A DNA stretch of 64,000 nt from Methylococcaceae bacterium. GTDB lineage: Bacteria; Pseudomonadota; Gammaproteobacteria; Methylococcales; Methylomonadaceae. The notes beneath the pieces are model-generated. The model was not told the DNA's origin, ran no database searches, and worked only from the letters and a program-made list of their open reading frames with translations. Position 1 is the first letter of the stretch. Each line of letters opens with the position of its first letter. The stretch is from assembly GCA_013140705.1 (NCBI GenBank), contig JABFSH010000031.1:1-64000 (forward strand), written 5' to 3'. Shown in pieces: positions 51,076 through 63,884 of the stretch. Both the position numbers and the translations under genes were made by a program.

Positions 51076-52800
51076 ATGAGGCATTCTGAAAAAAACAATA
51101 AGGGCATGGCGAAGCCGGTAGTGCTTGCCTTGTCGGCCGCAGTGGTGGGCGCACTGTCGGTGTTTGTAGTGATGAAATGGACGCAAAGGCCGGTAGAGCA
51201 GTCGCCGCCCGTTGCTGCGGGAATTCCGGCGACGCCAATTCCGAATACCGCTTTATCGGCCGTGCAGGAAACGCCCGCAGCAAAACCTACCGACCTGGAA
51301 ACCTTGGTGGCTCCGATCGCCTTATATCCCGACCCCCTGCTTGCTCAGCTTCTTCCTGCCACCACGTATCCGCTGGAGGTGGTGCAGGCAGCCCGCTGGC
51401 TGCAAACCAGGCCGGATCCGGCTCAATCTAGCGGACAGGATTGGGCGCCCAGTATTGTCGTGCTGCTCCAGTTTCCTCAGGTCATTACCATGATGAACGA
51501 CCGGCTCGATTGGACGACCCAACTGGGTGACAGATTCCTGGCCGAGCCCGAATCCGTGCTCGGCGCCATTCAAACCATGCGTACCAGAGCCATGACGGCC
51601 GGGTTGCTGAAAAATACACCGGAACAAAAAGTAACAAAAGCTGCCGTCACCAAGGTATCGACTACCGGTCAGGCAGACCAGGGGGCATGGATTCAAGCCC
51701 CAGCCGCGCAGTCGTCAGGTCAGACAAAAAAGGCCGAGGTCATTCGGATTGAACCGGCGAATCCGCAGGTCATATACGTTCCGCAATATAATCCGCAAGT
51801 ACTGTATACCGCACAACCTGTACAGACCTATAGTACTACCACGACAACCACCACATCTCAGGCTTCGCCTTGGCTGACTTACGGCGCGGGAGTGGCTACC
51901 GGCGCGTTGCTCGGTTGGGCAATTTCCGAATGGAATGATGACGATTGGGACGATCATTACCACGGTTATTATCACTACCCGCCCATTTCCCATTACTCCG
52001 GCTACGGCTACCATTCTGGCTATAGTGGCTGGAGCGGCAACAATGTCAATATCGATCGTAATGTAAACATTTCCGGCAACGAGATTAATGTCAATCGTCA
52101 AAATATGATTAACAACCGTCCGGCGCCGACAGCCTGGGTTCACGATCCTCAGCATCGCCGCGGTTATCGTTATACACCACAAGCGCAAAAACGCCTGACT
52201 GCTGCGCAGCCTAAATCACAACCGGCGCTCGCAGGACAGCGGCAAGCAACAGGCCAGGCCGCCAATCAAGATTATGCCGGTTATAACCGGGATCAACTGG
52301 ATCGTGCCCGACAAGCTCAGGTAGAAAAAACCCTGGGGCAGGGTGGTGCTGCATCCAGCCGAAAAAGACAGGACAGTGTCGCGCAACAGAGAGTCACTCA
52401 GCCTCAAAATCAATTGGGTAAAAAGCAGGGTGTTTCGCAGCAACAGGCGCGGCAAGGGATAAAACAGGATACTTACCCAGGAACTCAGAGAAACAAACCG
52501 GCCACCGCAGAAAGTCAGCAACGTAAAACACGCCCCACTACCCAGCAACAAGAACGCCTGTCAACCCTTAAGCCGAGCGAGTCATTCAAAGCAAAGCCAC
52601 CAACAGCACAGTCTTTCGGTCAAGCAACGGCCCGGCGGAGTTTTACCGGCAGCGATTATGCATCAGGAAGTGCATTTGGTGGCGTTAGCGATGGCGGGAG
52701 AGCGCAAGCCTACAGCCAAAGAGGTCAGTCGAGCCGGGCGCAAGCCACTGGAAGAGCGGCGGGCGGAGGCAGGTCGGGCGGCAGTTTTAGAAGACGTTAG
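51076..52800 (+). CDS. DUF3300 envelope protein with Gln-rich tail
   Basis: A protein of 574 residues. An N-terminal hydrophobic anchor (about 14-33) and a linker lead to the DUF3300 domain (about 72-290): LVAPIALYPDPLLAQLLPATTYPLEVVQAARWL, split by conserved P and D residues, then VLLQFPQVITMMNDRLDWTTQLGD and VIYVPQYNPQVLY. A Gly/Ala helix and a His/Tyr-rich segment follow, then a long Gln/Arg/Ser-rich disordered tail ending GGGRSGGSFRRR. It is exported or membrane-anchored. The family often pairs with DUF2950, as here. It is driven by motif B. Function unknown. Confidence 0.85.
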   Translation: MRHSEKNNKGMAKPVVLALSAAVVGALSVFVVMKWTQRPVEQSPPVAAGIPATPIPNTALSAVQETPAAKPTDLETLVAPIALYPDPLLAQLLPATTYPLEVVQAARWLQTRPDPAQSSGQDWAPSIVVLLQFPQVITMMNDRLDWTTQLGDRFLAEPESVLGAIQTMRTRAMTAGLLKNTPEQKVTKAAVTKVSTTGQADQGAWIQAPAAQSSGQTKKAEVIRIEPANPQVIYVPQYNPQVLYTAQPVQTYSTTTTTTTSQASPWLTYGAGVATGALLGWAISEWNDDDWDDHYHGYYHYPPISHYSGYGYHSGYSGWSGNNVNIDRNVNISGNEINVNRQNMINNRPAPTAWVHDPQHRRGYRYTPQAQKRLTAAQPKSQPALAGQRQATGQAANQDYAGYNRDQLDRARQAQVEKTLGQGGAASSRKRQDSVAQQRVTQPQNQLGKKQGVSQQQARQGIKQDTYPGTQRNKPATAESQQRKTRPTTQQQERLSTLKPSESFKAKPPTAQSFGQATARRSFTGSDYASGSAFGGVSDGGRAQAYSQRGQSSRAQATGRAAGGGRSGGSFRRR

Positions 52801-52826
52801 TGTCCTACTTACTGTTGATACGGGTG

Positions 52827-52956
52827 TTAGACTTTGGCAAAAAATAACTTACCGATCTGGCATCAAAAAAATTTTTTCGTTCATCCTGAGCTTGTCGAAG
52901 GACGGATTGCCGTGCGACTTTGCTATTTCGGGAAGTTATTTTTAACGGAACCCTAA
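52827..52956. repeat. AATAACTT-end MITE-like element, copy B2
   Basis: The 130-base element starts TTAGACTTTGGC and, on the other strand, TTAGGGTTCCGT. Both ends run on into AAAATAACTT(A/C)CCGA. The interior has a TTCATCCTGAGCTTGTCGAA segment. It lies between the DUF3300 and DUF2950 genes. The same ends occur at 13108-13284 and 14636-14979. Confidence 0.7.
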
Positions 52957-52985
52957 TTTTTCCAAACTATAAAGAGAGAGTTCAT

Positions 52986-53942
52986 GTGAACCGCTTAATA
53001 TTTTCCAGCACACAGGCTTTATGCCTGTTATCAAAAATTGTGGGGCTTACAGCCATTCTTGGCTTGACTGACGCGCTAGCGTTTGCAGCGAGCGATCAGC
53101 AATACTTTGCGTCGCCGGAACAAGCCGTGCAAAGCCTGCTGGAAGCTCTAAAAGCTGATAATGTCGATGCCTTACCTGCCCTGTTCGGACAGCAATACCA
53201 GGAACAGTTATTTAGTGGCGATCCAGTCGAAGACAAAAATAATCGCCAACAGTTCGTGGCTGCTGCCGCACTCAAACAGCATATCGAAAAACAGGGAGAC
53301 AGCCGCGCAATTCTGATAGTCGGCAATGACGATTGGCCATTGCCGATTCCCATTGTCAAAGAGGGGAATAACTGGCGCTTCGATACCGATTCCGGTATTG
53401 ATGAAATATTGAGCCGACGTATTGGCCGCAACGAACTCAGTGCCATTAACGTAGCGAAAGCCTATGCCGAGGCCCAATTCAATTATGCCGCCAAGGATAG
53501 GGACCAAGACGATGTTCTCGAGTACGCGCAGAAATTCCGCAGTAGCTCAGGGCAACAGGATGGCCTTTATTGGGAAAATGATGCCAGTGGGGAGCCCAGT
53601 CCGCTCGGCCCGCTGATGGCCGAAGCGAGGGCTGAGGCTTATTTTTCGTCCAAGAACAGTGAGCCACAGCCCTACCATGGGTATTACTACAAGATATTGA
53701 CCCGGCAAGGAAAAGGCGCAGCTGGCGGAAAGTACGATTATGTGATTAACGGCAATATGATCGCCGGTTTCGGTTTGATCGCCTTTCCCGCCAAATACGG
53801 TTCGTCCGGTATTATGACCTTCATGATCAATCATCAGGGTAAAGTCTACGAAAAAGACCTCGGTGAAAAGACCAGCCTTTTGGTAAATGATATCAAGGCA
53901 TTTAATCAGGAAGGCTGGAAGCTTGCTGAAAATCCGCAATAA
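52986..53942 (+). CDS. DUF2950 family protein
   Basis: A protein of 318 residues. A signal peptide (about 1-35, ending LAFA) precedes the DUF2950 domain: FASPEQAVQSLLEALKADN, FDTDSGIDEILSRRIGRNELSAI, VNVAKAY(A)EAQFNYAAKD, YHGYYYKILTRQG and FPAKYGSSGIMTFMINHQGKVYEKDLG. It is periplasmic and its function is unknown; it commonly occurs next to DUF3300, which is the upstream gene here. GTG 52986 with GAGAGAG upstream is preferred. The frame extends to 52920 but into the MITE. The MITE at 52827-52956 splits the pair. Confidence 0.85.
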   Translation: MNRLIFSSTQALCLLSKIVGLTAILGLTDALAFAASDQQYFASPEQAVQSLLEALKADNVDALPALFGQQYQEQLFSGDPVEDKNNRQQFVAAAALKQHIEKQGDSRAILIVGNDDWPLPIPIVKEGNNWRFDTDSGIDEILSRRIGRNELSAINVAKAYAEAQFNYAAKDRDQDDVLEYAQKFRSSSGQQDGLYWENDASGEPSPLGPLMAEARAEAYFSSKNSEPQPYHGYYYKILTRQGKGAAGGKYDYVINGNMIAGFGLIAFPAKYGSSGIMTFMINHQGKVYEKDLGEKTSLLVNDIKAFNQEGWKLAENPQ

Positions 53943-54016
53943 CCGCGGATTCCAGTTTTGCAGCCATGAGACGTTAAAGCTGCATTTACAACCATCAATA
54001 TCAAAGTGAGGACACT

Positions 54017-54583
54017 ATGTTAATTAATAAACGGCTGTATATCCTGCTGATCAGCTTGCTGGTTCTTGTCGGCTGTCAGTCCAGCGGTGGCACAAGAATG
54101 GCGAACTCTTCCGCAGAGATTAACCGTGACGTCGACCATGCGCTGCACAAACTCTATGCGAGCACCCCCGCCGCCAGAACGTTGGCGGCGCGGGCGAAAG
54201 GTATTCTGGTATTCCCCAGCATTGTCAAAGCCGGCTTCATGGTCGGTGCGCAATACGGCCGTGGCGGTGCTCTACGCGTCAAGGGCCGAACTGTCGGCTA
54301 TTACAACAGCGTTGCAGCATCCTATGGCCTGCAGGCCGGTGTGCAGTCCTTCGGTTACGCGCTGTTTTTCATGAACAATGCCGCAATGAACTATCTGAAT
54401 CGTAGCGAAGGCTGGGAAATCGGCGTTGGGCCGAGCATTGTTGTTGTTGATGCAGGCGTGGCCAGATCGTTAACAACCACGACAGCAAAAGATAATGTTT
54501 ATGCATTCATTTTTGACCAGAAAGGCTTGATGGCGGGACTGGGTTTGCAGGGTTCCAAAATCACCCGCATTTATCCGGACTAG
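54017..54583 (+). CDS. SYLF/YSC84-domain lipoprotein
   Basis: A protein of 188 residues. The lipobox LVGC gives a lipidated cysteine at about 20. The SYLF (lipid-binding, YSC84-like) domain covers the rest: ALHKLYASTPAARTLAARAKGILVFPSIVKAGFMVGAQYG, split by an alanine hinge, then YYNSVAASYGLQAGVQSFGYALFFMN and the C-terminal GLMAGLGLQGSKITRI. SYLF proteins bind phosphoinositides in eukaryotes; bacterial members are periplasmic or outer-membrane-attached and of unclear function. Start: ATG with GTGAGGA upstream. Confidence 0.88.
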   Translation: MLINKRLYILLISLLVLVGCQSSGGTRMANSSAEINRDVDHALHKLYASTPAARTLAARAKGILVFPSIVKAGFMVGAQYGRGGALRVKGRTVGYYNSVAASYGLQAGVQSFGYALFFMNNAAMNYLNRSEGWEIGVGPSIVVVDAGVARSLTTTTAKDNVYAFIFDQKGLMAGLGLQGSKITRIYPD

Positions 54584-54779
54584 CCGATGCACCTATAGGA
54601 AGCGCCTGTTTATCATCAATACCGGGGAATTTACGCGGTCTGTCACCGTCATGAAAACCCGTATATTCGACCATATTCAAGACATGAGTCGACAAGTTGC
54701 TTAATCGCTTTGCATCAGGCGGTCCAGCACGCAATAAAAATACATAAAAATTTACCATTACTTTTTACGAGGCATCACG

Positions 54780-55247
54780 ATGAAAACAAGTTTAAAAAAT
54801 ATAAAAATTACCACCACTCTCTTGATGGCCGCTTTGCCGGTATCGGTATTTGCGCAGGGCGTAATGGTGTATCCAGCACAGGGGCAATCGCCGGACCAGT
54901 TGTCTAAAGACCGCTATGAATGTCACACCTGGGCTGTTCAGCAGAGCGGTTTCGATCCGAGCAGCGGCGCCCCTGCTCCGCAATCAAGCGCTCCTCAAGG
55001 CAGCGTGGGCAGGGAGACATTAAGAGGTGGATTTCGTGGTGCGGCGGCTGGAGCCGCGATCGGTGCCATCGCAGGAGATGCGGGTAAAGGCGCGGCCATC
55101 GGTGCGACTGCCGGAGGATTGAAACGAGCCTTCGGTCAAATAGACGCAAACAAGACAGCCTCGGCAACAGGATCGAGTGACGCCGCTAATAATTACAATC
55201 GTGCATTGGGTGCGTGTCTTTCAGGCCGCGGTTATTCCGTTCAATAA
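54780..55247 (+). CDS. Glycine-zipper envelope protein
   Basis: A protein of 155 residues. A signal peptide (about 1-25, ending VFAQ) precedes a segment with YECHTWAVQQSGFDPS, a pattern seen in YMGG/glycine-zipper proteins. The glycine zipper is at about 81-110 (RGGFRGAAAGAAIGAIAGDAGKG), and a C-terminal CLSGRGYSVQ closes the protein. The two cysteines (about 43 and 148) could form a disulfide. It is a typical small outer-membrane-associated stress protein. Start: ATG with ACGAGG upstream. Confidence 0.85.
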   Translation: MKTSLKNIKITTTLLMAALPVSVFAQGVMVYPAQGQSPDQLSKDRYECHTWAVQQSGFDPSSGAPAPQSSAPQGSVGRETLRGGFRGAAAGAAIGAIAGDAGKGAAIGATAGGLKRAFGQIDANKTASATGSSDAANNYNRALGACLSGRGYSVQ

Positions 55248-55414
55248 AATCGGGTGAAGTATTGATGAAAACTACGGAGGCCAGGATTTACAAGTCGTTT
55301 CGAGAGGTATCAGGCTTGAGCGCATCCGTAGCCGATTTCCAAGAATGAATTTATCCGAATTGTGCAGGATATTTATTCATTTAAGTCACTGAAATAAAAA
55401 AACTATCGTTCGCA

Positions 55415-55489
55415 CTCGACTGCATGGATGCAGGAGGTAGAGCACCGACAGTAGGCGCTTTAGGCGACGCATGGAGCAGTTGCCGAGAG
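55415..55489. repeat. 75-base repeat, copy D2
   Basis: Differs at one position from 43669-43743 and has the same orientation. Directly downstream it runs into a TTAAGGG-family end, unlike copy D1. Confidence 0.8.
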
Positions 55490-55508
55490 CTTGTCGATGT
55501 CGAAGTGC

Positions 55509-55528
55509 AATTTTTAGTGTTCCCTTAA
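55509..55528. repeat. Solitary right end of the TTAAGGG-family element
   Basis: AATTTTTAGTGTTCCCTTAA matches the right end of 3454-3582 with two changes. No matching left end is within 200 bases, so it is a remnant. Confidence 0.55.
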
Positions 55529-55925
55529 AGTCATATCCCAACTTGACGCTGCTCTCAAGTAGACGTTATAGCGGTTGCCACATCGATGGGATACTTGCAA
55601 AAAATCATGCATGGGGTTCGGAGGGCCCCAAACGGGAAAAAGTGCATAATTTCAAAACAGCACACGTTAATCCGAGTCCTTCGACTTCGCCGGATGACTT
55701 TGTCGAAGTCAGTTACCAGTGTTTTGCAGGTCTCTCACTTTGATGCTGAATAATTTTTCATCAGCTCATTGCCCGCATTTTGAAAATGTATAAAAAAATA
55801 AGCAATTTCTATAAAGATCGGGTAAATTGAAACTGATAACTGTTCCCTAAAAATTTTTCTATCAAACCAAATGATCCGGGTGCGGGGACATTGATAGAGA
55901 AAAATATAATAAGAATAAGGGGTGT

Positions 55926-57677
55926 ATGAAAAAATATTATTTAGGCTTGTCAGTCACTTACCATGACCCTGCTTTAGCCATCATCGATGAGCAGGGTTGC
56001 GTCTTATTCGCAGAAGCCACCGAGCGTTATCTTCAGAACAAGCGGGCCTTGAACAACGAACCGGATCAGTTGTTTTATATGCCGGCGCTTTTGGAAAGCT
56101 ATTGTGCGGATGCCGATGAATTTGTCATTGCCATTAACTGGCGAAAAAAACGTCCCTGTTACGAAACGCTGGTCTCCGGTTTAGGATTCTTATCGGCTCC
56201 GGGCTTATTGAAAACCGGCATCAAAAAATTGCGTTCGCCGCTGGAGAACTATCAACTACATCACATGATGGCCTGTCAGCGCACGAGTATTTCCACCGCA
56301 GGGATCAATTTGGTGCGTATTATCCGGGAAATTTATCCGCACTGTGCTGTGGCTTTTGCTGATTTTGATCACCACCTGACGCATGCCGCGACCGCTTGTT
56401 ACAGTAGTCCCTTTGAAGAAGCGGCTTGTGCCGTGATTGATTCATTTGGCGAAAACGGCGCGCTGGCATTTTACCATTACCGCCATCAAAAACTGGCAAG
56501 GCTGCACGAAACACGCGGTATGGCGACTGCCAGCCCTGGTTTGTATTTCATGAAAATCACCGAATTGTGCGGATTTAACTGGTTACAAGGCGAGGAATGG
56601 AAAGTCATGGGTTTGGCGTCTTACGGCACGCTCAATCCGGAGCTGTATGAACTACTTAATTCGACCCTGGTAGTTAACGGCTTTGATTGCAGACACCATC
56701 CCGAACGTTTGTTCGAGAAAATGGCTAACCTGAATCGCTTTAAAAGACCGCCGGACAGACCCGCAGAAGAAGCGGCGGATACCGCCTACACCGGACAGGT
56801 GTTTTTTGCCGATTGGCTGACACGTCTGTTGAATCATCTCCAGGAAGTAACCAGGTCCGATCATTTGGCACTGGTCGGCGGATGCGCGCTGAACTCCTCC
56901 TTCAATGGTCAGATCACGAGTCGTACTGCCTTTAAACGGGTGCATATTCCGTCTGCGCCCGCCGATGATGGTTGTGCACTGGGAGCCGCCTGGCTGGCTT
57001 TTCGCAATGATCATCCGAACTGGATCGCAAAACCGGATGTATTGTCGCCTTATTCCGGGGCAAGTATCCCGGATGAGGCCATACAGCAACTCATCCGTTT
57101 TAATCGCGCGCTGAACATTATGCATTTGCCGGAGACAATTTGTGAACAGACGGCCGAATTATTGACGCAAGGCTGTCTGGTCGGCTGGGTGCAGGGACGC
57201 GCAGAGTTTGGTCCGCGAGCCTTGGGAAATCGATCCATACTGGCTGATCCACGCCACGCCGCCACGCAGGATCATATCAATCAGCAAATTAAATTCAGGG
57301 AGCGCTTTCGTCCGTTTGCACCATCGATTTTGCATGAATACGGCGCAGACTATTTTGAGAATTATCAAGAATCGCCCTATATGGATAAAACGCTGCATAT
57401 TCGAACGCAGGTGCAGGATAAAATTGCCGCTGTTTGTCATGTCGATGGAACCGGGCGGCTGCAAACGGTCAAACGGGAATGGAATCCGCGTTTTTATCGC
57501 TTGATCAGCTGTTTTCATCAACTCACCCAAATTCCGCTGGTACTGAATACCAGCTTTAATGTGATGGGAAAGCCGCTGATTCACAGCCTGGAAGATGCGC
57601 TGGCCGTTTTTTTGACTACGGGCCTGGATGTGTTAGTGATCAATGACTATTTAATTACCAAACGCCGCGATGAATAA
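55926..57677 (+). CDS. Carbamoyltransferase (NodU/TobZ/CmcH family)
   Basis: A protein of 583 residues predicted to move a carbamoyl group from carbamoyl phosphate, via carbamoyl-adenylate, to a hydroxyl of a small molecule. The N-terminal Kae1-like half has YHDPALAIID, FADFDHHLTHAATACYSSPFEEA and AVIDSFGENGA, with the histidine-rich metal-site segment, then ALVGGCALNSSFNG. The C-terminal half has the hallmark VQGRAEFGPRALGNRSILADPR and LNTSFNVMGKP(L). Length fits the family. It starts with a strong AAGGGG site. Its stop overlaps the next gene by 8 bases, so product formation is coupled to the two oxygenase-like genes that follow. The substrate is unknown. Confidence 0.9.
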   Translation: MKKYYLGLSVTYHDPALAIIDEQGCVLFAEATERYLQNKRALNNEPDQLFYMPALLESYCADADEFVIAINWRKKRPCYETLVSGLGFLSAPGLLKTGIKKLRSPLENYQLHHMMACQRTSISTAGINLVRIIREIYPHCAVAFADFDHHLTHAATACYSSPFEEAACAVIDSFGENGALAFYHYRHQKLARLHETRGMATASPGLYFMKITELCGFNWLQGEEWKVMGLASYGTLNPELYELLNSTLVVNGFDCRHHPERLFEKMANLNRFKRPPDRPAEEAADTAYTGQVFFADWLTRLLNHLQEVTRSDHLALVGGCALNSSFNGQITSRTAFKRVHIPSAPADDGCALGAAWLAFRNDHPNWIAKPDVLSPYSGASIPDEAIQQLIRFNRALNIMHLPETICEQTAELLTQGCLVGWVQGRAEFGPRALGNRSILADPRHAATQDHINQQIKFRERFRPFAPSILHEYGADYFENYQESPYMDKTLHIRTQVQDKIAAVCHVDGTGRLQTVKREWNPRFYRLISCFHQLTQIPLVLNTSFNVMGKPLIHSLEDALAVFLTTGLDVLVINDYLITKRRDE

Positions 57678-59850
57678 TTCAAACCGTGCTTTCGATCCGT
57701 TACTGCAGCCGGTCTTTTCGGAGCCGATCAGTTCGGCTGAATTAAATATTCAGTCAAGCTGTCGACATTTGTTCTATCAACTGATGCAGGTGCAATCGCA
57801 TCCTCAGGTTTTACCTATTGCGCATGACTACCTAACACAGCATTTGTCGAACATTCGGTCGCGTTATGTCAACACCTATTCCAGTGCTTATTCGGTCGAT
57901 ACGTTGAAGGGTCTGCTTAACCTAACGGATGAGCGTTTTCCGTTGACCGTTTCAACGCCAGGGGACTACCTGCAACAGTGTGCGCCGATTTTTTTGACCG
58001 AGCCTTGCTGGTTGCAGGGCGTGTCACAGGCCGCGACGTGCCAGTCACCGATTGCCGTTAACTTGTTGTCCGTGTACTTAACACTTACCGGGGACAGGTC
58101 GTATAAATCATTGTATCAAGGCTTGTTAGCGGCAGAAGGCCGTGACATACCGGCATTACATTGCTGGGCATTTGCCGAACAAGCGACTATTGCTGACAGT
58201 GTGTTTGATTTTGCCGTCACGCAGTTGGCTTTGGCGGCGTTCCCACGCGTTTTTTTTCCGGAATTGCTGGGTTTTACCGTGGCGTATTGCCGTAAGCCAG
58301 CGCTGATGGACTATTTGCTGACCCTCGAAAAGTCACAAACAAACACGCTGTTGAGCCAGTTTATTTTGCTCAGAATGCAAATGCCAGCTGCGCAATCAGC
58401 ATCCGTTATTGACGTCATTCAGGATTACCTCCAGGTGTTTTCTGAGCACGAAGCAGCGCTATGGGGGCGTATTCAAACGGGTTTCTGGCTTTATCAGGAC
58501 CAGAATCAACGTTGTGATCACGAAAGGGAGCAGCAAGCGGGCGCTGAGTTAACCCCGGTGCAGGCAATGGCTAATTTATTGCAGCAGAAAGCGGCATCGG
58601 CGCGTGGACATCATGGCACCATTCAACTGGCTGGCGAATCGCTTGATGACTGGTTTTCACGGTTGCCGTCTGACAGCAATAAATTTTTGAAGGCATTAAG
58701 TCAGTCGACCTACGTCAATCATCAACTACCTGAAAACAGTCGCTTGCTCAAACTGTTCGATTTCAATGGGCCGATGTTTGGCGTTTTGAATGACGCCGAA
58801 AAAGATACTTTAAAAAACTGGCTACGCGTAACGGATTCCGATTTGGAGGCTTCCAGTCAGGTTTTTTCTTCAGTCATTAAAGCGATGGCTGTAAGCCCGG
58901 CAAGGCATGATGGCGCTGGGCGATCATCAATCAACTATGCCAGGTTGAACAATCGGGAATTGTATTATTACCTGGTGAATATTGATGTTTATCCGGATGC
59001 ATTGACTGCCGCGAAAAAGAAAGTAAATTGCGTTTTACGGTTATCCAGATTATTTTCTCGCATGCCATTCAGGCACTATAGCCATCAGGCTTTTGATGAC
59101 TACATCAACGCCATCTATCAAACAGAAGTGCGCAACTATGAACCGCTTGATAATTCGCCAAAACTGGGAAAAAAAGCGTATTTATGGGGGATTGAACAAC
59201 TGGCACCGACCATTTTAACGGATGGCTGCTGGTTGCAAAATGCTCATCGTGTCAGTACACACGCCAGTTCTACAATCACCGGCATACTAACCAATATTTA
59301 TAGGGATGAAATTGGCGCAGGTATTCTGGAACAAAACCATCCTTACATTTATCAGCAGTTGCTGGAGAGTCTGGATATCTCCGTTCCTCCCATTTCCACA
59401 CAGGCATTTATCAATTATTCGAGATTTTTGTCCAGTGCTTTTGATATACCGGTATATCTGCTTGCCATTTCCAATTTCACCAGCAGCTTGTTGCCTGAAT
59501 TATTAGGTTTGAATATGGCGATAGAATTAAGCGGCCTAGGCCGAGTGTACCTGCGCCTGGCCGAAGAGCTCAAGTTCTGGGGTATTAACCCGGCCATCGT
59601 CAATGTGCATATTTCGATCGATAATGTAGGGAATGGACATGCCGCTGGAGCAAAGCGTGCCATTCAGTTGTACCTGGATGACATATTGGCCGTTAACGGT
59701 GAGCGTGAAATGCAGGTTCACTGGCATCGGATTTATAGCGGGTATCGTTCGTTAGAGATTGCCAGCAGCCGTTTCAAATACGCATTGGTCATCTGTTATT
59801 TATGGAAACTGATAACGGATGCCTGTTTCAAATCATCCCCATCAACCTGA
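57670..59850 (+). CDS. Double haem-oxygenase-like di-iron protein (iron-containing redox enzyme family)
   Basis: A protein of 726 residues with two related halves. Repeat 1 (about 105-206: APIFLTEPCWLQGVSQAA...VFFPELLGF) and repeat 2 (about 511-622: APTILTDGCWLQNAHRVS...LLPELLGLN) share the same block order. Only repeat 2 keeps putative metal ligands: E547 in RDEIGAG, H557, E619, and H647-x3-D651-x5-H657 in VHISIDNVGNGH. This is the spacing type of HDO-fold (haem-oxygenase-like di-iron oxidase) enzymes such as UndA, CADD and SznF relatives. In repeat 1 the E and H positions are replaced (LTGDR, S). It would catalyse O2-dependent oxidation or C-C cleavage of a small molecule. Tightly coupled to both neighbours. 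Confidence 0.82.
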   Translation: MNNSNRAFDPLLQPVFSEPISSAELNIQSSCRHLFYQLMQVQSHPQVLPIAHDYLTQHLSNIRSRYVNTYSSAYSVDTLKGLLNLTDERFPLTVSTPGDYLQQCAPIFLTEPCWLQGVSQAATCQSPIAVNLLSVYLTLTGDRSYKSLYQGLLAAEGRDIPALHCWAFAEQATIADSVFDFAVTQLALAAFPRVFFPELLGFTVAYCRKPALMDYLLTLEKSQTNTLLSQFILLRMQMPAAQSASVIDVIQDYLQVFSEHEAALWGRIQTGFWLYQDQNQRCDHEREQQAGAELTPVQAMANLLQQKAASARGHHGTIQLAGESLDDWFSRLPSDSNKFLKALSQSTYVNHQLPENSRLLKLFDFNGPMFGVLNDAEKDTLKNWLRVTDSDLEASSQVFSSVIKAMAVSPARHDGAGRSSINYARLNNRELYYYLVNIDVYPDALTAAKKKVNCVLRLSRLFSRMPFRHYSHQAFDDYINAIYQTEVRNYEPLDNSPKLGKKAYLWGIEQLAPTILTDGCWLQNAHRVSTHASSTITGILTNIYRDEIGAGILEQNHPYIYQQLLESLDISVPPISTQAFINYSRFLSSAFDIPVYLLAISNFTSSLLPELLGLNMAIELSGLGRVYLRLAEELKFWGINPAIVNVHISIDNVGNGHAAGAKRAIQLYLDDILAVNGEREMQVHWHRIYSGYRSLEIASSRFKYALVICYLWKLITDACFKSSPST

Positions 59851-59852
59851 CC

Positions 59853-60923
59853 ATGTTTTCCTTGATCATTCATCGCTTAGGTTATCTGTTCGCATTTGTA
59901 TTGCCTGTCAGCACATTCTTTTTTTTAAGCACCGGACCGCACGACATAGCGGTCGCACTCGCCTGTACGCTACCTTTCTGGCTGATGCTCGCGGCTGATG
60001 GATTGATTCGCGACACTTCGCCTCAGCAGAATTCAAGGCTGAATAGCGGATATTACAACGGTATTTTATTACTATTGTCCCTGCTGCAATTTGTGAATGT
60101 CCTGTTGATGCTGGATGCAGTCAGCCTGTTACGCTGGGAGACACAGACGGATATTTTTCCCAACCTGGTGAATTTGATGGTGATCCGATTTTTGGTAGGA
60201 ACCAGTTCGGGGACGTCCGGCATAGTTGTTGCCCATGAATTGATTCACCGTCCTCAATGGGCACTGCAAGGGTTGGGACGCTTATTGCTTAGCACTGTGT
60301 GTTATGAGCATTTTGTCATTACCCACAAGCGAGGCCACCATCTCAGTATCGGCATGCCGGATGATATTGCATCGGCACGACTCGGTGAAAGTTTTAAGCA
60401 TTACTGGAAACGAGTCTATGGAGGCCATGTACGCTTTGCCTGGCGCTCGGAGGAAGAACGAATAGCCGGTAAACAAGGTCGTGTTTCAGGCTTTGCGGTT
60501 CTGAGAAATCAGGTATTTTGGGGGTTTTTGGCTGAGTTGATGCTCTGGGTATTGATCATACTGGTATTCGGATGGCTGGCGGCCTTTATGTTTCTATATC
60601 AGGCGCTGGCGGCTGTTCGTATACTGGAAGCAGTAAATTATTTTCAACACTGGGGCCTTGATGACGAGCGCTATGCCAATACCTATGGCTGGGTGAGTCA
60701 TTCGCCCATTAGTCGTTACGCGTTGATCGGATTGTCTCACCACATTGGACATCACGAAAATGAACAAATGCATTTTCATAAGATCAAGTATTCAGATCAG
60801 GGTCCTAAAATGCCTTATGGATATTTTGTCATGAACTTTTGGGTCAAGCTTGATAACGCATCCTATCAGGCCATGGCTGTTCGGGAACTTGAGCGTTACT
60901 GTAACAAACGGATTCCTGATTAA
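59853..60923 (+). CDS. AlkB-like membrane di-iron monooxygenase / desaturase
   Basis: A protein of 356 residues with about six helices and the histidine boxes of alkane monooxygenases: HELIH (128-132), EHFVITHKRGHH (152-163), NYFQHWG (262-268) and SHHIGHH (295-301). AlkB itself has HELxHK, EHNxGHH, NYxEHYG and LQRHxxHH, so this is a divergent AlkB-type enzyme for hydroxylation of a lipophilic chain. The ATG at 59853 follows the upstream stop by two bases. ATG 59802 is possible but overlaps the upstream gene by 49 bases. Neither has a clear ribosome binding site, so it is probably translated by re-initiation. Its stop codon lies in the arm of the repeat at 60916-61131. Confidence 0.85.
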   Translation: MFSLIIHRLGYLFAFVLPVSTFFFLSTGPHDIAVALACTLPFWLMLAADGLIRDTSPQQNSRLNSGYYNGILLLLSLLQFVNVLLMLDAVSLLRWETQTDIFPNLVNLMVIRFLVGTSSGTSGIVVAHELIHRPQWALQGLGRLLLSTVCYEHFVITHKRGHHLSIGMPDDIASARLGESFKHYWKRVYGGHVRFAWRSEEERIAGKQGRVSGFAVLRNQVFWGFLAELMLWVLIILVFGWLAAFMFLYQALAAVRILEAVNYFQHWGLDDERYANTYGWVSHSPISRYALIGLSHHIGHHENEQMHFHKIKYSDQGPKMPYGYFVMNFWVKLDNASYQAMAVRELERYCNKRIPD

Positions 60924-61131
60924 GTATAAGCTTCAGCCAATATCAAAGAGCCATAAGTTTCCAGATACGTCGCCCCGGCATGGGCTGCCGGGGTCCAGGC
61001 TACACGGATGTAAACCCAGCGATTAGCTCTCCTGTTGAGTCACATCCCTGTGTTCTGGACCCCGGCAGTCCATGCCGGCATGACGGCTACTTGAGTGTCT
61101 GCTATTTCAGCTGAAACTTGTGGGTAATCAG
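60916..61131. repeat. MITE-like repeat with CTGATTA ends, copy C2
   Basis: A 216-base element with 23-base imperfect ends (CTGATTAAGTATAAGCTTC... and ...CTTGTGGGTAATCAG) and a core with GCATGGGCTGCCGGGGTCC and GGACCCCGGCAGTCCATGCC as complementary stretches. The left arm supplies the last bases and the TAA stop of the AlkB-like gene. Confidence 0.7.
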
Positions 61132-61338
61132 GAACCGATTTGATGCTCGCGTTGACGTAATAAGCTGTCAATTTTGGCAGACAAAACCTGACATCTCTGT
61201 CAGTTATGCCCGTCATTGAGTCAGTCGTTTTTGTTATAATAATTCAGCTTACATGTTGATTTTTAAATAATTAAATGAGTTGGCACCCTTATTGAATAAT
61301 ATCGGGTTCCTAGTATTAGTTATTTAGAGGTTTTCAGT
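60924..61338. other. Intergenic region after the AlkB-like gene
   Basis: The first half is the C2 repeat. The rest (61132-61338) is A/T-rich and shows no gene. TTAGAGG before 61339 is the ribosome binding site of the next small gene. Confidence 0.6.
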
Positions 61339-61524
61339 ATGTTAAATAAAGCATGGTATGAATTATCACCCGCGATCTATTTGATAGTGTCAGTTAATTG
61401 TTTAATCGGCGATAACCGGTTGGCCGCCTTTTCCGGATTCATCTTGTTCTTGGTTTCGCTTCTTATCGTTGTGATGCGTGTGCAATATCGAACAGCATCG
61501 AGACAGAGACAGTTTGTCAAGTGA
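61339..61524 (+). CDS. Small membrane protein (61 residues)
   Basis: A protein of 61 residues with two hydrophobic segments (about 10-24 and 29-47) separated by IGDNRLAAFSG, and a basic C-terminus (RTASRQRQFVK), probably cytoplasmic. AGAGG lies eight bases before the ATG. The family is not recognised. It converges with the mepA gene, separated by a stem-loop. Confidence 0.65.
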   Translation: MLNKAWYELSPAIYLIVSVNCLIGDNRLAAFSGFILFLVSLLIVVMRVQYRTASRQRQFVK

Positions 61525-61557
61525 AGTGCAGGCAAGAGGGAATGCAGTTGATTTAAT

Positions 61558-61604
61558 GCTTGCTCCTCTCACGCTTCGACGCCACCAGAGTGAAAGGAGC
61601 AAGC
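61558..61604. terminator. Stem-loop between convergent genes
   Basis: Arms GCTTGCTCCTCTCAC (61558-61572) and GTGAAAGGAGCAAGC (61590-61604), with one mismatch. Its position between the small membrane protein gene and mepA suggests a bidirectional terminator. There is no long T-run on either side. Confidence 0.55.
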
Positions 61605-61619
61605 GAAAGCCATTGTCGC

Positions 61620-62507
61620 TTAGTTTTTTAGTATTCTTTGGCAGAGTTCCGGCAAGGCCAAGGGTTTCGCCGGTTCCGGCTTTTTTGCAGCAGGTGCTTT
61701 CGCTTCATCGGAAAACCACCATGCCAACGAAGCATCACAGCCATCGCCCTGTGGCAGCGGTTCCTGTGCCTGGCAGTATTTACTTTGTGCCGGGCACTTT
61801 AAACGGACATGAAAGTGATCATCATGTTTCCACCAGGGGCGTATTTTTCTAAGCCAGTCATGTGCTGTGGCGCTCATACAAAGATGGCGCTTAACACTGG
61901 GATTGACAAAGATCCGGTCAACTTCGGGCATGCGAGCAGCAAGTTCAAGAATCTTTTCATTATTCAATGTCCATTGCGATAAGTTGATGGCATCTGAATC
62001 ATCAAGTAGTACCGAAGGGGCGCTCCAGGTTTCGCGTTCATTTAAGCCCAGTTTTCGGAAGGATGCCTGTTGAGAAAGCAAAAACCAGATGTCGACATCC
62101 AGGCCTGTTTGGTGGCTACGATGACCGGTTAACGTCGGTCCGCCGCGAGGTTGTCCCAAATCGCCAATCAAAAGCACGCCTAAATGCTGTTGAAATGCCT
62201 TACGCCCCAGATTTTCAATAAACTGTGTTAAGTCCGGATGGCCATAAAATCGCTTTCTTGATAAACGCATGACTTGATAGCCGAGTCCGTTTACAGGTAA
62301 TGTCACGGCGCCACTCAGACAGCCGGCATTATAGTTGCCGATGCTTTCAGCCCTGACGCCAAATTGGACAGGGGTTTTAACCGCAGCCCATTGCAATGCG
62401 ATTGGATTGGCGGAGCACTCGAAGCCCAGAGCCAGCAGCAGAACAATGACTATTGACTCAAACTTTATAGATGGCATTTGGCAGCGAAATATTGGCTTGC
62501 GGGACAT
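61620..62507 (-). CDS. mepA: Penicillin-insensitive murein endopeptidase
   Basis: A protein of 295 residues. A signal peptide (about 1-33) precedes the MepA/LAS metallopeptidase domain, with its zinc ligands: H129-R-S-H132-x4-D137 (GHRSHQTGLDVD) and H231/H233 in HDDHFHVRL. Preceding blocks AGCLSGAVTLPVNGLGYQVMR and GVLLIGDLGQPRGGP are typical. It cleaves the D-Ala-mesodiaminopimelate cross-link in peptidoglycan. The C-terminal extension is Pro/Ala/Lys-rich. ATG 62507 has GAGAAG upstream; the frame extends to 62582 but without a better start. It is transcribed toward the small membrane protein gene. Confidence 0.92.
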   Translation of the reverse strand: MSRKPIFRCQMPSIKFESIVIVLLLALGFECSANPIALQWAAVKTPVQFGVRAESIGNYNAGCLSGAVTLPVNGLGYQVMRLSRKRFYGHPDLTQFIENLGRKAFQQHLGVLLIGDLGQPRGGPTLTGHRSHQTGLDVDIWFLLSQQASFRKLGLNERETWSAPSVLLDDSDAINLSQWTLNNEKILELAARMPEVDRIFVNPSVKRHLCMSATAHDWLRKIRPWWKHDDHFHVRLKCPAQSKYCQAQEPLPQGDGCDASLAWWFSDEAKAPAAKKPEPAKPLALPELCQRILKN

Positions 62508-62855
62508 GACACTTCTCACTATAAATCGGTGATGATCAGACAAAACCCATTGTACCCCATGCAGGTTAGCGAGTTGCGTCAAGTTGTTTGGTGTTGAATA
62601 GATGATGCCGTACTGTTGAGAGATATTGTTTTCAGCGCTGCATGTGTTACCAGCGGCGATAACAATTTAGTGACAAGTTCTTCGTCAGGGGCAATATAAA
62701 GTCTTGCAATTACTTGAAAGTTAACTAGACTTCGAAGAAGTTTCGGATCACCCATGCTTGTGCCGAATCAATTTGGCCCCAGACCTGCCCTGTTAGTTTC
62801 GCAAGCAAAATAATCTGCGTTACTTTAGACTAAATTAGATTCTTAAGAAGAAAAA
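62508..62855. other. Divergent intergenic region
   Basis: It lies between mepA (minus) and the diguanylate cyclase gene (plus). Promoters for both must lie here, but no convincing box, repeat or small gene was recognised. A weak AAGAAG lies before 62856. Confidence 0.5.
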
Positions 62856-63884
62856 ATGGCGACCTTAAAATATTTCGAATCAACTTTGCGAAGCAAAGAA
62901 TTGCTCAAATACACAATATCCTTTATTGGAAATCACCGTTTATCGGCAAATCCGATCAATTACACAGTATGCTATGAATATCTGCTGGGTGGTAATTTGG
63001 GATTAAACCAAGTGATCGACAAGGCGATTTCGGATAATAGTCCACTCACTGACCAGATGATGGGAGCATGGTTCGAGGCATATCTTTCTGGATCTGGTCA
63101 GGCCGATGTGGGGCAATCACAAGCTGATCTGATGGGAGTAATCTCGAAGCTGAATGACTTTGTGACGGTTGCCGAAAAGGATGTCAATCAGTTCAACCAG
63201 GCTTTACGTTCCAGCGAAAATGAATTGGCCACCTCTAAAAATTCGCTTGAATCCGTGGTGGCGGATTTACTGCTGAACACACGAACCATGCAGGTTTCAA
63301 TGGAGATGATGAAACAACAGATGCAGGAAAGCAAACAGGAAATTACCTATCTGAAGGAACGGTTGGAGAAAGCCACTGAAGAAGCATTGACTGATCCTCT
63401 CACCAGCCTGACTAATCGTAAAGGACTGGCAAAGGCGATTGATCGGGTGTTGCTTGAAGAAGATATAAAAATATATCCCTGTTTACTGATGCTGGATATC
63501 GATCATTTTAAGAAAATTAACGATTCATTTGGACATTTACTGGGCGATCGCGTGATTAAAGTAGTTGCAAATACGGTAGGTAATCAAATCAAGGGGAAGG
63601 ATACCGCCGCTCGTTATGGAGGAGAAGAATTTTGTGTATTATTGCCGGAAACAGAACCCGGGGATGCCGTTAAGGTTGCTGAAAACATTCGGCTGGCCAT
63701 TGAAAAAACCCGGATCAATCGGTCCAGCGATAATCAGGAAATTTGTCGTGTGACCATTTCGATTGGTGTAGCCCGCTACAATCCGGAAGTTAATGAGCCC
63801 ACCATGTCAATGTTTGAGCGGGCAGATAATGCCTTGTATCAATCAAAAAATGAAGGGCGAAATCGAGTCACCTTTGCTGAATAG
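62856..63884 (+). CDS. Diguanylate cyclase (GGEEF), coiled-coil N-terminal sensor
   Basis: A protein of 342 residues. The N-terminal part (about 1-100) is helical and soluble; a long coiled coil (about 105-180) follows. The GGDEF domain starts at LTDPLTSLTNRKGL (about 180) and has the active-site GGEEF with LLMLDIDHFKKINDSFGHLLGD and VTISIGVA. It should make cyclic di-GMP from two GTP. The position of the usual RxxD inhibitory site reads K-G-K-D, so product inhibition may be weakened. Similar proteins with this N-terminus are common in gammaproteobacteria. No transmembrane helix is present. Confidence 0.92.
   Translation: MATLKYFESTLRSKELLKYTISFIGNHRLSANPINYTVCYEYLLGGNLGLNQVIDKAISDNSPLTDQMMGAWFEAYLSGSGQADVGQSQADLMGVISKLNDFVTVAEKDVNQFNQALRSSENELATSKNSLESVVADLLLNTRTMQVSMEMMKQQMQESKQEITYLKERLEKATEEALTDPLTSLTNRKGLAKAIDRVLLEEDIKIYPCLLMLDIDHFKKINDSFGHLLGDRVIKVVANTVGNQIKGKDTAARYGGEEFCVLLPETEPGDAVKVAENIRLAIEKTRINRSSDNQEICRVTISIGVARYNPEVNEPTMSMFERADNALYQSKNEGRNRVTFAE

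Follow-up and report, generated by a model that had tools for sequence, protein, structure and literature searches.

The 64,000-nucleotide stretch of DNA analysed here (hereafter the window) comprises positions 1 to 64,000 of contig JABFSH010000031.1 from the Methylococcaceae bacterium assembly GCA_013140705.1. The system in question is a trio of genes on its forward strand, placed by open reading frame (ORF) calling at 55926-57677 (583 aa), 57670-59850 (726 aa) and 59802-60923 (373 aa). They encode a carbamoyltransferase (CT), a tandem haem-oxygenase-like diiron protein (HDO) and an AlkB-like membrane hydroxylase; these families, which an earlier note had proposed from the sequence alone, are confirmed by the ORFs, by Pfam and by a match to the solved AlkB structure 8f6t. 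The same note's remark that no nonribosomal peptide synthetase, polyketide synthase or transporter gene is adjacent holds for the scanned ORFs neighbouring the trio in the window; a major facilitator superfamily transporter adjoins the CT gene in three relatives (L015, L016 and L028).

The first gene (55926..57677, + strand) encodes a 583-aa CT of the NodU/TobZ type, with Carbam_trans_N (6e-28) and Carbam_trans_C (2.8e-70) on one chain, both above the curated cut-off, and with matches to solved relatives at 9.5e-69 to 3.2e-54. When it is aligned with the CTs of 21 of the 80 loci listed from the scan described below (alignment A4), H149, H150, H153, G318-G319-C320, L322-N323 and most of residues 426-441 are invariant in all 22 rows; these are core motifs of the family. 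TobZ-type CTs carbamoylate hydroxyl groups. The O-carbamoyltransferases NovN, GdmN and TobZ have the same two domains as the window CT but, unlike in their case, no antibiotic scaffold genes occur among the scanned ORFs near it.

The second gene (57670..59850, +), overlapping the first by 8 bp, encodes the 726-aa HDO, in which Pfam recognizes Haem_oxygenas_2 (8.1e-15) on residues 509-688 only. An AlphaFold2 model from a 43-row alignment (mean pLDDT 89.1, pTM 0.86; alignment A2 holds the window protein and those of 42 of the 80 listed loci) has a predicted haem-oxygenase-like helical fold by Foldseek and VIA-align. The C-terminal repeat (about residues 418-720; 58921..59829, +), the predicted diiron domain, finds its best VIA-align matches in the N-oxygenases RohS (Z 22.3), HrmI (21.9) and SznF (21.8) at 12-15% identity, and lower ones in FlcD (17.7), CADD (15.1), BesC (13.8) and UndA (13.4), with PolF in the same list. 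The N-terminal repeat (about residues 70-302; 57877..58575, +) matches only PqqC/TenA at Z of about 10-11, a range possible for common helical arrangements. Since hhalign aligns 261 columns of the two halves at E 8.9e-46, they are, judged by their profiles, true homologous repeats.

Three His and three carboxylates of the C-terminal repeat (E547, H557, E610, H647, D651 and H657; codons within 59308..59640, +) form a ligand set kept in 44 of 44 aligned rows, the Streptomyces and rhizobial proteins included. The set is also invariant in all 30 rows of alignment A1, which holds 30 of the 35 HDO ORFs of the order and leaves out two paralogues, a 617-aa ORF, and over-long and partial ones; in the quicker 43-row alignment A2, E547 is conserved at a level of 90% or more only. 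At the positions mapped onto the N-terminal half, E198 alone is common (40 of 44 rows) and no row has the full set; the L146 protein lacks that half, and D651 has no mapped partner. The available text of PMC13108848 names such a 3H/3C motif for the HDO superfamily. The protein is then predicted to have one diiron centre, in its C-terminal repeat, rather than two, the N-terminal repeat being a putative pseudo-domain. The earlier note was thus right about two related repeats, whereas the ligand set that it assumed for both is found only in the second; the empty metal site that it considered as a possible outcome is not what is seen, as an HDO fold with one full ligand set is predicted.

The third gene encodes the AlkB-like enzyme. 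Its ORF is open from 59802, but the in-frame ATG at 59853, residue 18 of that ORF and directly behind the HDO stop codon, is the more likely start, since alignments with most relatives begin no earlier than residue 19 of the longer ORF; the protein would then have 356 aa (59853..60923, +). It matches Pfam FA_desaturase at 4e-23 and 8f6t at 6.8e-30. AlkB uses nine His, and nine in the order HxxxH, HxxxHH, H, HxxHH (H128, H132, H158, H162, H163, H266, H297, H300 and H301, numbered from 59853; 60234..60755, +) are invariant in all 27 rows of alignment A3, made from the window and 26 of the 80 listed loci. While sequence match and His pattern are shared with the alkane 1-monooxygenase AlkB, this relative belongs instead to a CT/HDO cassette, and its orthologues are 31-63% identical to it. 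With their metal-ligand and core motifs conserved, all three enzymes look functional.

Conservation of the trio was assessed in the genome of the window together with 60 relatives from its order, 61 genomes in all. HDO was found in 35 of them; close homologues of all three genes occur in these 35, and of none in the other 26. CTs of the carriers are at least 49% and their AlkB-like proteins at least 31% identical to those of the window (AlkB and HDO are partial in G018), whereas the best CTs and AlkBs of the non-carriers reach only 39% and 27%. HDO and CT lie on the same strand within 1 kb in 33 of the 35 carriers, and all three genes are adjacent in 30. The AlkB-like gene follows HDO in the same direction in 18 carriers, two of which (G029 and G035) have no adjacent CT; it is divergent beside CT in 14, and separate in G046, G052 and the fragmented G018. 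The trio is therefore a unit, its adjacency being far beyond chance, and its members have stayed associated through a rearrangement of their order. That three unrelated genes are neighbours by accident has next to no probability: the joint presence or absence (35 against 26 genomes) and the adjacency across two gene orders refute it, and nothing was found in its favour.

A scan with patterns from the HDO alignment, restricted to one genome per species, recovered at least 80 loci. Methanotroph names (Methylococcales genera, families and methanotrophic symbionts) stand on 72 loci among the 80 matches listed, a share that is partly given by construction as the patterns came from a methanotroph alignment. 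The matches listed include Methylobacter, Crenothrix, Methyloglobulus, Methyloprofundus, Methylicorpusculum, Methylococcus, Methylocaldum and Methylothermaceae, as well as symbionts of sponges, Bathymodiolus and Gigantopelta; in Methylococcus capsulatus Texas (L106) the trio is present. The eight remaining loci come from four Gammaproteobacteria, a planctomycete, Leucothrix arctica, USCg_Taylor and a Methyloversatilis metagenome-assembled genome (MAG). All three genes were found by tblastn in 59 of the 80 loci listed, a search that used the window's own proteins and may miss divergent partners; some of the remaining loci end at contig edges. The conservation that the earlier note had made the touchstone of its idea is thus borne out by these 59 loci and the 30 carriers with adjacent genes, and the trio is a real, conserved cassette. 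The USCgamma record has HDO and CT on a contig that ends soon afterwards (L116, L146), a genome of the same family, f36, has HDO alone (L114, L145), and in Leucothrix and the planctomycete HDO is not accompanied by CT. Relatives of HDO occur in 8 of 369 genomes in a class-level search and in 21 of 398 at phylum level, most of the latter being a shorter HDO. Besides the trio, only two protein clusters recur in more than four of 40 fetched loci: c3, whose window member is a GGDEF protein, and c4, a radical SAM protein, each in seven. The trio on the contig labelled Methyloversatilis universalis (L129) has its nearest relative in Methylocaldum, and the contig is perhaps mis-binned.

Two known lipids of methanotrophs have to be considered against this distribution. 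Type I methanotrophs have a methylene-ubiquinone, and the trio might tailor a quinone by hydroxylation, carbamoylation and elimination; a membrane hydroxylase together with a leaving group would suit an exomethylene, and the distribution is methanotroph-centred among the 80 matches listed. We nevertheless consider this a poor prospect: the literature search found no data on the distribution of methylene-ubiquinone, and the available text of PMC11844350 reports ordinary UQ8:8 as the main quinone of Methylobacter and Methylovulum cultures. The prospect is slimmer still for a part of the trio in hopanoid decoration, by which it would produce or feed the methylcarbamate amino-hopanoids of type I methanotrophs; these carry the group on the C-35 amine, whereas TobZ-type CTs modify hydroxyls. 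Such hopanoids are reported in several type I genera (PMC5100885, in part) and from a Methylobacter enrichment (PMC11844350, in part), yet the former source gives MC-pentol as absent in M. capsulatus, strain not stated there, while M. capsulatus Texas has the trio, a comparison of one strain pair only.

The pairing of CT with a tandem HDO is already known from another context, since it is the core of the gvg-like clusters as described in the available parts of the gvg papers, including one for the herbicide 4-formylaminooxyvinylglycine (FVG). In the gvg operon of Pseudomonas, gvgC is listed as a Heme-oxygenase 2 gene and gvgF as a NodU-family CT gene, beside gvgA (lipase/esterase), gvgH (aminotransferase), gvgI (formyltransferase) and LysE exporters (PMC8067088 Table 1); according to the accessible text of that paper, knockouts of gvgA, gvgC, gvgF or gvgH lose the antibacterial and herbicidal phenotype of FVG. 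Gvg-like clusters share the core gvgA, B, C and F, and the vast majority are described as uncharacterised in the part of PMC8064604 that was available. In our data, a tandem HDO together with CT and an SGNH hydrolase turns up again in bacteria that are unrelated: in L161 and L162 (same phylum, other class), L163 (family f167), G125 (L147), G381 (L148), Agrobacterium vitis (L164), Acinetobacter (L168) and Photobacterium (L181); the SGNH, LysE and ATP-grasp labels in L161-L163 and L168 were given by eye from the ORFs, TauD in L162 being the exception. The Photobacterium locus has an SGNH hydrolase (under the Pfam cut-off), HDO, CT, a class III aminotransferase, a formyltransferase and LysE, which is the gene content of the gvg operon as far as Table 1 of PMC8067088 gives it, and its HDO is 27% identical to that of the window over 617 columns (5e-53). 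The link from the window to gvg runs through this Photobacterium homologue and not through the Pseudomonas GvgC sequence.

By way of that homologue, the window resembles the FVG cluster in having a tandem HDO of gvgC type next to a NodU-type CT of gvgF type. It differs in that no SGNH esterase, aminotransferase, formyltransferase or LysE exporter was found beside the trio (ORFs 51076-63884), which has an AlkB-type hydroxylase instead. Its CT also comes from a separate supported branch: in a tree of 40 rows, rooted at midpoint with few outgroup CTs and leaving out the 1068-aa SGNH-CT ORF of L148, the CTs of methanotrophs and those of gvg-like clusters fall on separate branches (100/100 and 100/99), both of which include CTs without HDO alongside. 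This pattern is consistent with the CT-HDO pair having arisen more than once. The earlier note knew of no described pathway with this gene set; for the CT-HDO pair that view has to be given up, while the addition of AlkB was not found described, nor a product of the trio named, in a literature search of open-licence papers. The cassette is a conserved methanotroph variant of a known pairing and not a categorically new pathway. Among the gvg-like clusters, L162 (874-4440) and L163 (2610-6193) have two ATP-grasp-like proteins, seen by eye and by sub-threshold Pfam matches, and a TauD-type oxygenase; perhaps their product is peptide-like.

It is proposed that the trio is a tailoring cassette of gammaproteobacterial methanotrophs that would take a precursor from elsewhere in the cell and build a modified small molecule or lipid from it. 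As the first step, the AlkB-like enzyme, a membrane diiron protein, would hydroxylate an unactivated carbon of a hydrophobic scaffold. From family knowledge, CT would then make carbamoyl-adenylate from carbamoyl phosphate and ATP and move the carbamoyl group to the new hydroxyl, giving R-O-CO-NH2. Finally, the C-terminal diiron domain of HDO would oxidise the carbamoylated intermediate, most likely at nitrogen, to an N-hydroxycarbamate or, after rearrangement, an alkoxyamine R-O-NH2, with the N-terminal repeat in a structural role. CT and HDO would act here like gvgF and gvgC of FVG-type clusters. FVG contains an aminooxy group, as its name tells; this, the requirement for both genes and the N-oxygenase-like fold together suggest that CT places a carbamate and HDO oxidises at nitrogen. 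HDO may act on a carbamoylated intermediate, as the same HDO-CT pair serves the pathway to an aminooxy amino acid in the available gvg text. To our knowledge, RohS, HrmI and SznF have neither a tandem, ligand-free HDO-like repeat nor a CT partner. In this scheme we infer the substrate, the order of steps, the N-oxidation and the product; as a whole, from AlkB hydroxyl through CT carbamate to HDO oxidation, it could well be right but is slightly more apt to fail at some step than to hold throughout.

A different use of the same enzymes would be a UndA- or BesC-like route, in which HDO desaturates the chain or cleaves a C-C bond, the carbamate serves as leaving group or final decoration, and the product is an alkene or a carbamoylated alcohol. 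AlkB-like enzymes act on alkyl chains, and UndA, BesC and PolF stand in the same fold list as the window HDO; UndA, a fatty acid decarboxylase, shares with it the fold and, by the part of PMC13108848 available, the 3H/3C ligand type. The fold scores of BesC and UndA are, however, well below the Z of about 22 of the N-oxygenases, and the pairing with CT is otherwise seen in gvg-type clusters. We regard this route as unlikely, though by no means negligible. On the same grounds the order envisaged in the earlier note, oxidation first and carbamoylation last to give a hydroxyl or alkene, is not favoured.

Several observations weigh against the scheme of carbamoylation followed by N-oxidation. The N-oxidation, which perhaps occurs, is argued from fold rank and analogy; Foldseek gives no match under E 0.001 for HDO (best SznF, 4.1e-3), and RohS, which by profile comes closest among the solved relatives, matches at an E of only 0.098. 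Deletion of gvgA or gvgC lowers expression of the gvg cluster about 50- to 100-fold or more, for which the authors suggest a regulatory role in the accessible part of PMC8067088, so that a catalytic role is not demonstrated by the knockouts in themselves. In the CT tree the methanotroph enzyme does not fall as sister to those of gvg-like clusters, hence descent does not show a shared reaction. The 44-row HDO tree, which like the ligand count omits the stop-interrupted HDO of G125 (L147), sets the gvg-like proteins apart (100/100) and mixes the trio rows with CT-less paralogues in the remainder; the trio rows thus do not come out as one group, at least two changes are forced, and the deep forks are not firm. 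Tandem HDOs occur without CT in the fetched flanks of Planctomycetota L092, Leucothrix L108, the Crenothrix paralogue L104, and L110, L112 and L114, as well as on Sinorhizobium and Streptomyces plasmids. Of the 36 other genomes in the family, 18 lack HDO, so that the product is dispensable.

A fourth enzyme may join the cassette in one clade. A B12-type radical SAM protein (DUF4070) is encoded upstream of CT in seven of the 61 genomes (L030:12739-14400, L018:7722-9383 and five further loci), no more than 400 bp away in six of them and 1.7 kb away in G020, and these seven are the only ones of the 61 with a DUF4070 radical SAM protein at E <= 1e-60. In G044, a second CT, 49% identical to that of the window, adjoins another DUF4070 radical SAM protein (L171:1224-2816), which is 28% identical to the trio-linked one. 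The radical SAM neighbour falls below every NCBIfam cut-off, those of hopanoid methylases included; that it C-methylates the product in this clade is a fair guess. In its most specific form the proposal would credit type I methanotrophs, Methylococcus capsulatus and some animal symbionts among them, with an undescribed, carbamate-derived and N-oxidised lipid or metal ligand (an N-hydroxycarbamate or alkoxyamine on an AlkB-hydroxylated chain); its carbamoyl group would be the nitrogen donor for the N-O bond, and in the one clade with symbionts the B12 radical SAM enzyme would C-methylate it as well. All of this being true at once seems rather improbable.

Methanotrophs act as a limit on methane release, and M. 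capsulatus has long served as a model. As the trio is widespread and the CT-HDO pair is also part of a known herbicide pathway, a widespread methanotroph compound is probably still to be discovered. If the proposed scheme is true, it would provide a new methanotroph compound, possibly a marker for methane oxidisers, and a test of how CT and tandem HDO cooperate, a step left open for FVG in the gvg literature as available.

A link between HDO and copper monooxygenases was tried and is not relied on, as the carriers are not independent and the link is not seen inside the order. Among the 369 class-level genomes, those with PF02461 carry HDO (E <= 1e-10) in 5 of 11 cases, and those without PF02461 in 3 of 358 (Fisher p 4.5e-7); two carriers belong to one order (G000 and G039) and two to one family (G088 and G233), and without G381 the counts are 4 of 11 (or 4 of 10) against 3 of 358. 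Inside the order, PF02461 is present in 25 of 26 genomes without the trio and 28 of 35 with it. G381 has three copies each of AMO and HAO, no PQQ alcohol dehydrogenase above the cut-off, and a gvg-like set without AlkB; by its gene content it is a probable ammonia oxidiser. Its locus L148 has a tandem HDO, a CT and the SGNH-CT ORF. The window's genome (G000) has three PF02461 (AMO/pMMO subunit) genes, on contigs C46, C14 and C64.

Other HDO clusters were seen during the survey. A second, CT-less tandem HDO in Crenothrix (L104:7920-10244) and a Methylobacter MAG (L093:334-2664) is sister to the Leucothrix copy (L108:7950-10223); the surroundings of the latter include TauD-like and Rieske genes and a 426-aa protein with no match in Pfam, to which a 425-aa ORF near the Crenothrix copy is similar. 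The shorter HDO family (open frames of about 445-600 aa; L149:7955-9352, L150) is present in many genomes of family f167, followed in L149 by a small-domain methyltransferase. Streptomyces plasmids (L166 and L167) have a tandem HDO with ketoacyl synthase (KAS) III, acyl-CoA dehydrogenase, P450, saccharopine dehydrogenases and a SidA-type monooxygenase, another cluster type with no CT in view.

Upstream of CT, no common operator was found by eye or by 7-mer counts in 23 upstream stretches; promoter-like sites number 13 against a shuffled mean of 10.1, and terminator-like sites 12 against 7.6. A gene for a penicillin-insensitive murein endopeptidase (M74) adjoins the trio both in the window (61620-62582) and in L022 (5960-6832).

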